From the NCBI RefSeq assembly GCF_027257175.1, contig NZ_JAPFGD010000003.1, positions 62,001-126,000 on the forward strand: 64,000 nucleotides of DNA. The letters run 5' to 3'. Shown piece by piece: positions 27,868-28,842 of this stretch. Each line of letters opens with the position of its first letter. Position 1 is the stretch's first letter. The notes under the pieces were generated by a model. The model was not told where the DNA came from. It ran no database searches and was given only the letters and a program-made list of their open reading frames with translations. Both the position numbers and the translations under genes were made by a program. The stretch comes from Castellaniella sp. S9. Lineage in GTDB: Bacteria; Pseudomonadota; Gammaproteobacteria; Burkholderiales; Burkholderiaceae_B.

Positions 27868-28842
27868 ATGACCTACCAATTCGATTTCGGCGCGGTGCTG
27901 CAGTATTGGCCCATGCTCTTGCAAGGCGCCGAGACCACCTTGCTGATGTCGTTCTGGTCCACGCTGGCCGGTTTCGTCATGGGCGTGGCCTGCGCCATCG
28001 CGCGCAGTTCGGGCGGCCCGCTGCTTCGCCGTGCCGTCGGGGCCTACGTCGAGGTCATCCGCAACACGCCGCTGATCATCCAGAGCTATTTCCTCATCTT
28101 CGGCCTGTCCAGCGTCGGATTCACAATGTCTATCCTCACCGGCGCCATCCTGGCGCTGGTGATCAACATCACGGCCTACACCTGCGAGATCGTGCGCGCC
28201 GGCATCGAATCGGTGCCGCGCAGCCAGCGCGAGGCGGCCGAATGCCTGGGCCTGTCGCCCCTGCAGGTCTACTGGCACGTCATCCTGGTGCCGGCGCTCG
28301 AGCGCGTCTACCCCGCCCTGACCAGCCAGTTCGTGCTGCTGATGCTGGTCACCAGCCTGCTGTCGGCCGTGGGGACGGAAGACCTGTTCGGGATATCCGG
28401 CAACATCCAGGCGCTGACCTTCCGCAACTTCGAGGTCTTCATCGTGCTGTGGGTGGTGTACCTGGCCATGTCCGTGCTGGCGCGCGGCACGACCAACGAC
28501 GCCAACGTCACCCGGCTGGCCCCGGCCGGCACGAACATCGTGCGCTTCGAAAACGATGCAACCGCCATCACGGCGGTCACCAGCGGACGCGCCCACATAT
28601 TCTCGGGCGCCCCGTCGATCATCGCCTCCCTGAACAAGAGCATGGGGGACAAGCCCCTGGAGACCAAAGTCGTCATGGCGACCGCCATGATGGGCATCGG
28701 CGTGGCCAAGAACAACCCGGAACTGCTGAACAAGATCAACGAGCTCATCCGCCAGAACCTGAAAAATGGCAAGCTGAACGAGATCTTCAAGACATTCCAT
28801 GGCGCCGACCTGCCGCAAGAGGTCCTGGCCGAAGGGAAATAA
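27868..28842 (+). pseudogene. Chimeric ABC permease fused to C-terminal part of a binding protein
   Basis: Residues 1 to about 206 (from the ATG at 27868; an in-frame ATG at 27835 is the alternative) are a HisM-type amino-acid permease, with VEVIRNTPLIIQSYF, the EAA loop SVPRSQREAAECLGL and a last helix VLWVVYLAMSVLARG. At about 28485 the frame runs straight into TTNDANVTRLAPAGTNIVRF and on to [12 protein letters not shown], which is the second half of a family 3 solute-binding protein. A binding protein cannot work behind the last helix on the cytoplasmic side, and it lacks a signal peptide and its first lobe. An in-frame deletion that removed the permease end, probably an ATPase gene and the binding-protein start explains this. 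The permease half may still fold. Confidence 0.75.

Follow-up and report, generated by a model that had tools for sequence, protein, structure and literature searches.

The window analysed here, that is, the whole stretch of DNA under study, comprises 64,000 nucleotides and corresponds to positions 62001-126000 of contig C22; all coordinates given below are positions in this window. It belongs to a genome of 3.8 Mb in 33 contigs, estimated to be 99.99% complete with 3.22% contamination. A single stop-free frame on the plus strand (27868-28842) runs over 324 codons from an ATG at 27868. Its product is a chimera in which residues 1-206 of a HisM/ArtQ-type permease are followed by the C-terminal ~119 residues of a solute-binding protein of family 3. 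The permease part (27868-28485, plus strand) represents residues 1-206 of the 227 of permease 1. It keeps the EAA loop; its last helix is cut short, and the conserved C-terminal tail is gone. The binding-protein part (28486-28842, plus strand) extends from the residues GTTND to the stop codon, the signal peptide and the first half of the protein being gone.

The Pfam model BPD_transp_1 matches chimera residues 35-205 with 65.2 bits, above its cut-off of 26.4, and SBP_bac_3 matches residues 231-312 with 21.2 bits (E 0.00026), below its cut-off of 26.4. The binding-protein half is better supported by homologues than by this sub-threshold score: residues 205-324 are 76% identical to the C-terminal part of the binding protein of Castellaniella defragrans (locus L029), and residues 203-324 are 90% identical to that of genome G009 (locus L031). 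Residues 1-207 share 93% protein identity with permease 1 of C. defragrans and 91% with that of L031. The open frame, the Pfam matches and the homologues confirm the sequence-only reading of a permease that continues in frame into the second half of a binding protein. Judged from gene order, the fusion is more than a chance juxtaposition, both halves lying at the orthologous positions of an operon present in relatives.

Upstream of the chimera lies a divergent GntR/FCD regulator (26959-27729, minus strand), of which a homologue is found in the locus stretch of 10 of 12 relatives. Nested inverted repeats, CAGACCGGTAAA / TTTACCGGTCTG and GGGAAAACCAT / ATGGTTTTACC, occupy positions 27770-27822 between the regulator and permease 1, with 12-base perfect arms and with 11-base arms with a 2-base gap. 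The right half of the repeat, TGGTTTTACCGGTC, is identical in the window and in four relatives, and the left arm has diverged in G005. These repeats are the probable operator of the operon, to which the divergent GntR regulator is likely to bind. The control region thus seems to have survived the deletion proposed below, which brings the enzyme genes closer to it. Downstream, on the plus strand, follow an SDR-family dehydrogenase (28856-29629), an FAH-family hydrolase (29670-30512) and an enolase-superfamily sugar-acid dehydratase (30512-31792), presumably L-fuconate dehydratase-like. The curated model nearest to the hydrolase is 2,4-didehydro-3-deoxy-L-rhamnonate hydrolase, at 420 bits below its cut-off of 500, and none of the curated models listed for the three enzymes reaches its cut-off. 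At the family level, the neighbouring enzymes fit a sugar-acid pathway; ‘L-fuconate’ as the substrate of the former transporter is a guess. A second ABC importer lies further upstream (22298-26020, minus strand), with a family 3 binding protein, a permease and an ATPase, beside an IclR-type regulator. It is accompanied by an apparent FAD-dependent oxidase gene, recognised from its translation only.

In C. defragrans, the corresponding genes are arranged in the order permease 1 (227 aa), permease 2 (215 aa), ATPase (244 aa), binding protein (274 aa), followed by the dehydratase. The closest relative at the fusion locus is G009, where all four transporter genes are kept: the GntR regulator is divergent upstream, and the transporter is followed, as in the window, by the SDR, the FAH hydrolase and the dehydratase in that order. 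The proposal that the operon once held a full transporter is borne out by this gene order, the permease, ATPase and binding-protein genes being intact at the same locus in both relatives. The window lacks the stretch from about codon 205 of the permease to about codon 151 of the binding protein, and the rest of the arrangement is present. As in a fusion derived by deletion, the parent genes are separate and intact in relatives and the intervening genes are lost. The missing length is 1,998 bases in comparison with C. defragrans and 1,980 bases in comparison with L031, both multiples of three. The same cut would remove 2,008 bases in L030 and 1,984 bases in L032, out of frame in both. A second length difference is found near the deletion, in the spacer between the stop codon of the binding protein and the start of the SDR gene (28843-28855), which counts 13 bases in the window and 100 in L031.

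The missing genes were searched for in the rest of the genome. No close copy of the missing L031 stretch was found there; 20 DNA matches were obtained, none longer than 237 bases and mostly in the ATPase part, the best being 75% identical over about 200 bases. At the protein level, the best identities in the whole genome were 40% for the N-terminal half of the binding protein, 52% for the missing ATPase and 51% for the missing permease 2, all at the level of paralogues. Eight related ATPases are present at 49-52% identity. A complete paralogous importer is located outside the window, on contig C1 at about 418.7-421.7 kb. Compared with the lost or broken parts, its permeases are 46% and 51% identical, its ATPase 51% and the N-terminal half of its binding protein 40%. 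Judging by these identities, it is an importer of the same type and not the missing genes.

The junction GCGCGCGGC (28480-28488, plus strand) encodes Ala-Arg-Gly at residues 205-207, in agreement with the end of the permease at about 28485 given by the sequence-only reading. It shares eight of its nine bases with the permease of C. defragrans (GTG CGC GGC) and all nine with the binding protein (GCG CGC GGC). Aligned by codons, the C. defragrans permease reads CTG GTG CGC GGC GCC, the binding protein ACC GCG CGC GGC ACG and the window CTG GCG CGC GGC ACG. The breakpoint is therefore marked by an imperfect 9-base repeat, G(T/C)GCGCGGC, with an exact run of seven bases (GCGCGGC) in C. defragrans. 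A short shared stretch, CGCGGCACG, had been proposed as the point of recombination. Its CGCGGC part is indeed found in both C. defragrans parents, but the ACG occurs on the binding-protein side only; the repeat overlaps CGCGGCACG without being identical to it, so that the place of the proposed recombination point holds and its exact extent does not. At the position of residue 205, the permeases of 23 relatives carry Val (19) or Met (4), and the window carries Ala. This Ala fits the binding-protein side, so either the switch occurred immediately before the mismatch or Ala was already present in the ancestor; in the former case the exact identity at the actual switch point would be a single base. 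When each of the two C. defragrans genes is cut at a random place, at least seven bases are shared with a probability of 0.0014, or 0.0033 for in-frame pairs of cuts. The shared run at the Arg-Gly cut varies between loci, with seven bases in C. defragrans, three in L031, none in L030 and eight in L032. A short-homology deletion is the likely route of joining.

What remains at the locus falls short of an ABC importer, which requires two permease subunits with their conserved tail, an ATPase and a complete exported binding protein. Permease 2 is absent, the locus holds no ATPase gene, and the signal peptide and N-terminal half of the binding protein are missing. In the permeases, the last helix is followed by a tail, x-R-x-R-[KR]-L-G-T, which was present in all 23 sequences read (23 of 35 loci, L052-L063 being left out) and is absent from the chimera. 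All but one of these permeases (22/23) end within a few residues of the tail; that of L047 runs on. The 15 intact binding proteins compared have 30 invariant columns, of which 20 lie before the breakpoint and are thus lost from the chimera, as is the signal peptide. ArtQ-type permeases have a cytoplasmic C-terminus, and the half-lobe of the binding protein would therefore face the wrong side of the membrane. The positive charge of the permease tail fits this topology, which would place the binding-protein half on the cytoplasmic side.

Structure models point in the same direction. The intact binding protein of L031 was modelled by AlphaFold2 from a 15-row alignment with a mean pLDDT of 88.5 and with strands and helices, and the cut falls directly after its strand 147-151. 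The chimera, modelled from a 28-row alignment, reached a mean pLDDT of 70.7, with residues 204-211 below 50; in its binding-protein half, the block means lay at 45-81 and no strand was predicted. This half is not alone in its low confidence, since permease residues 161-200 were also poor (pLDDT 40-51). Moreover, the alignment used for the chimera (A2) spreads permease tails into binding-protein columns, another one (A3), with misplaced binding-protein rows, was left out, and the control is a single intact protein with its own alignment (A4). The poor model of the permease and the misplaced tails make the comparison with the intact model a weak support. The chimera is most likely a non-functional membrane stump, and uptake by this ABC system has presumably been lost with it.

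The distribution of the fusion was addressed with a 121-residue peptide across the junction as query. At E 1e-20 or better, 19 of 268 family genomes matched, and among the candidates scored (at most the best 16 per genome) only one match, that of the genome itself, spanned the junction. Among the other 18 matching genomes, 14 carry both pieces 1.9-2.3 kb apart; the second piece is far from the first in G056, and G124, G125 and G200 have the permease piece only. In a sample of 399 order genomes, which overlaps the family set, three matches were obtained at E 1e-20, and again the junction was spanned in the own genome only among the candidates scored (at most the best 11 per genome, so that a very diverged fusion could be missed in either scan). 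Relatives sharing the fusion with conserved sequence across the junction, which would have pointed to a working fused protein, were thus not found in the family or order genomes searched. Among the 35 named loci compared, the Bradyrhizobium locus L043 was considered as a second fusion, query residues 1-321 being matched within 1,010 bases, and was rejected: its genes are separate, and the binding protein (ORF 4452-5360) precedes the permease (match from 5393). No description of this fusion was found in the portions of the literature that were consulted.

No frameshift or stop was found in either half over the 324 codons. Substitutions were counted in six genomes, G006 being omitted as nearly identical to G007. 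In the permease part, the window branch carries nonsynonymous and synonymous changes (N:S) in a ratio of 2:4 versus 27:54 for five relatives taken together (p = 1); one of the two nonsynonymous changes is the junction codon 205. The binding-protein half, with 5:1 versus 26:34 (p = 0.09), leans towards relaxed constraint. These counts are noisy, as shown by the dehydratase, an uninterrupted gene with 10:6 in the window and 13:7 in C. defragrans. Pairwise dN/dS values of the window against G009, C. defragrans and G007 range from 0.05 to 0.10 in the permease part and from 0.09 to 0.26 in the binding-protein half, those of G009 against C. defragrans and G007 being ~0.07 and 0.15-0.16, respectively. 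The intact frame and the substitution pattern are consistent with a recent event and give, at most, a slight sign of relaxed constraint. A very recent deletion explains the undamaged frame; so would continued use.

Convergent to the operon, on the 3′ side of the dehydratase, lie a GntR regulator and a TRAP transporter (DctM, DctQ, DctP; 31808-35357, minus strand). This cluster is absent from the corresponding place in G009 and was possibly acquired horizontally. DctP (34407-35357) had no other match in the 268 family genomes at E 1e-110 (at most the best eight candidates per genome) or in the 399 sampled order genomes at E 1e-120 (at most the best five). Its best relative in the genus, in G001, is 48% identical, and neither G005 nor G009 has a match at E 1e-40. 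That the TRAP transporter took over uptake from the lost importer is speculative. Its role as a known partner of the pathway was considered and dropped, no further DctP match being obtained at these thresholds in the genomes searched. The idea of a replacement draws no support from co-occurrence.

The chimera very probably arose from a once complete ABC importer by a single in-frame deletion and is a remnant without function. The deletion, of ~2.0 kb, would have occurred in the lineage of this Castellaniella-like bacterium and removed permease 2 and the ATPase gene entirely, together with the 3′ end of permease 1 and the 5′ part of the gene for the binding protein. The ends were probably joined by slippage or short-homology recombination between the imperfect 9-base repeats, translated as V-R-G on the permease side and as A-R-G on the binding-protein side. 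They would have met in frame by chance, thus leaving an open frame; such an outcome is roughly a one-in-three accident and therefore not in itself a sign of selection. An artefact in which the assembler skipped ~2 kb of an intact genome is quite improbable, even for a draft of 33 contigs with some estimated contamination. The junction shares only about nine bases, with a mismatch. The word sizes usually employed by assemblers are far longer, and so short a repeat is an unlikely cause of an assembly error. Besides, the junction is preceded by ~90 kb of contig C22, a contig that extends to at least position 398901, and searches with the missing stretch and the three protein pieces recovered the skipped genes on no other contig as a close copy. 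A mosaic generated by homologous recombination, in which a C. defragrans-like donor gave the permease half, the remainder is G009-like and the exchange itself created the junction, could account for the DNA identities, which are 90% to C. defragrans and 83% to G009 in the permease, and 84% to G009 and 79% to C. defragrans in the binding-protein half. Such an origin is nevertheless very improbable, for the longer branch of G009 can explain its lower identity. The trees of the permease and of the regulator do not place the window, and those of the binding-protein half and of the dehydratase put it together with G009 (support 97/94 and 97/96). The mosaic was rejected on these unsupportive trees and on the 80-base identity profile of the regulator and permease, which shows no sharp switch of donor.

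It is extremely doubtful that the chimera is a working fused protein, either a membrane-inserted transporter subunit acting with other ATPases or permeases of the cell or a membrane sensor. The intact frame, the retained EAA loop, the lack of excess amino-acid changes in the permease part and the retained operator-like region would all suit such a protein, and the eight related ATPases and the importer on contig C1 could provide partners. However, the fusion occurs in no other genome of the family and order sets searched, and the permease lacks its conserved tail, the binding protein its first half. The binding half, which would lie on the wrong side of the membrane as judged from the ArtQ-type topology and the positively charged tail, is also poorly modelled where its intact homologue is modelled well, the latter point being weak. 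Just as hard to credit is a more specific version, in which the chimera is a newborn single-polypeptide membrane protein served by another ATPase, or a sensor whose binding-protein lobe is held on the inner side of the membrane, kept under the old control of the operon after the lineage-specific TRAP transporter took over uptake. What the deletion left is, almost certainly, a dead relic and not a novel type of protein.

The permease chain of 4YMS (220 residues), a polar amino acid type ABC importer, aligns over its residues 3-201 with chimera residues 5-203 (E 1.3e-33). ArtQ/HisM importers resemble the standard four-gene set of the relatives, whereas the window is left with a single truncated permease and one half of a binding protein. 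Proteins of the GlnPQ type, annotated as ‘Glutamine ABC transporter permease and substrate binding protein’, likewise carry a permease and a family 3 binding domain on the same polypeptide chain. Their binding domains are complete and come ahead of the permease; in the chimera, by contrast, an incomplete binding domain follows a truncated permease. A natural fusion of the GlnPQ type would have a complete binding domain, and the chimera has lost the 20 of 30 invariant columns mentioned above; it would also be conserved among species, and this one was found in one genome only, the same one in the family set (1/268) and in the order sample (1/399). In the portions of the source consulted on sugar-acid ‘Route III’ clusters, the non-phosphorylative genes are often accompanied by genes for an ABC-type transporter and a regulator (PMC6336799). 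The dehydratase, dehydrogenase and hydrolase described there are also found in the window, where the transporter is deleted.

Overall, the locus offers a clean case of how a short-homology deletion can leave behind what looks like an intact ‘fusion gene’, one that would pass for a real protein in automatic annotation. It also presents a catabolic operon whose enzymes and regulator were kept while its importer was lost, and for which the adjoining TRAP transporter could be a replacement. Beyond that, it is a matter of ordinary genome erosion, with the chimera as a pseudogene-like remnant.
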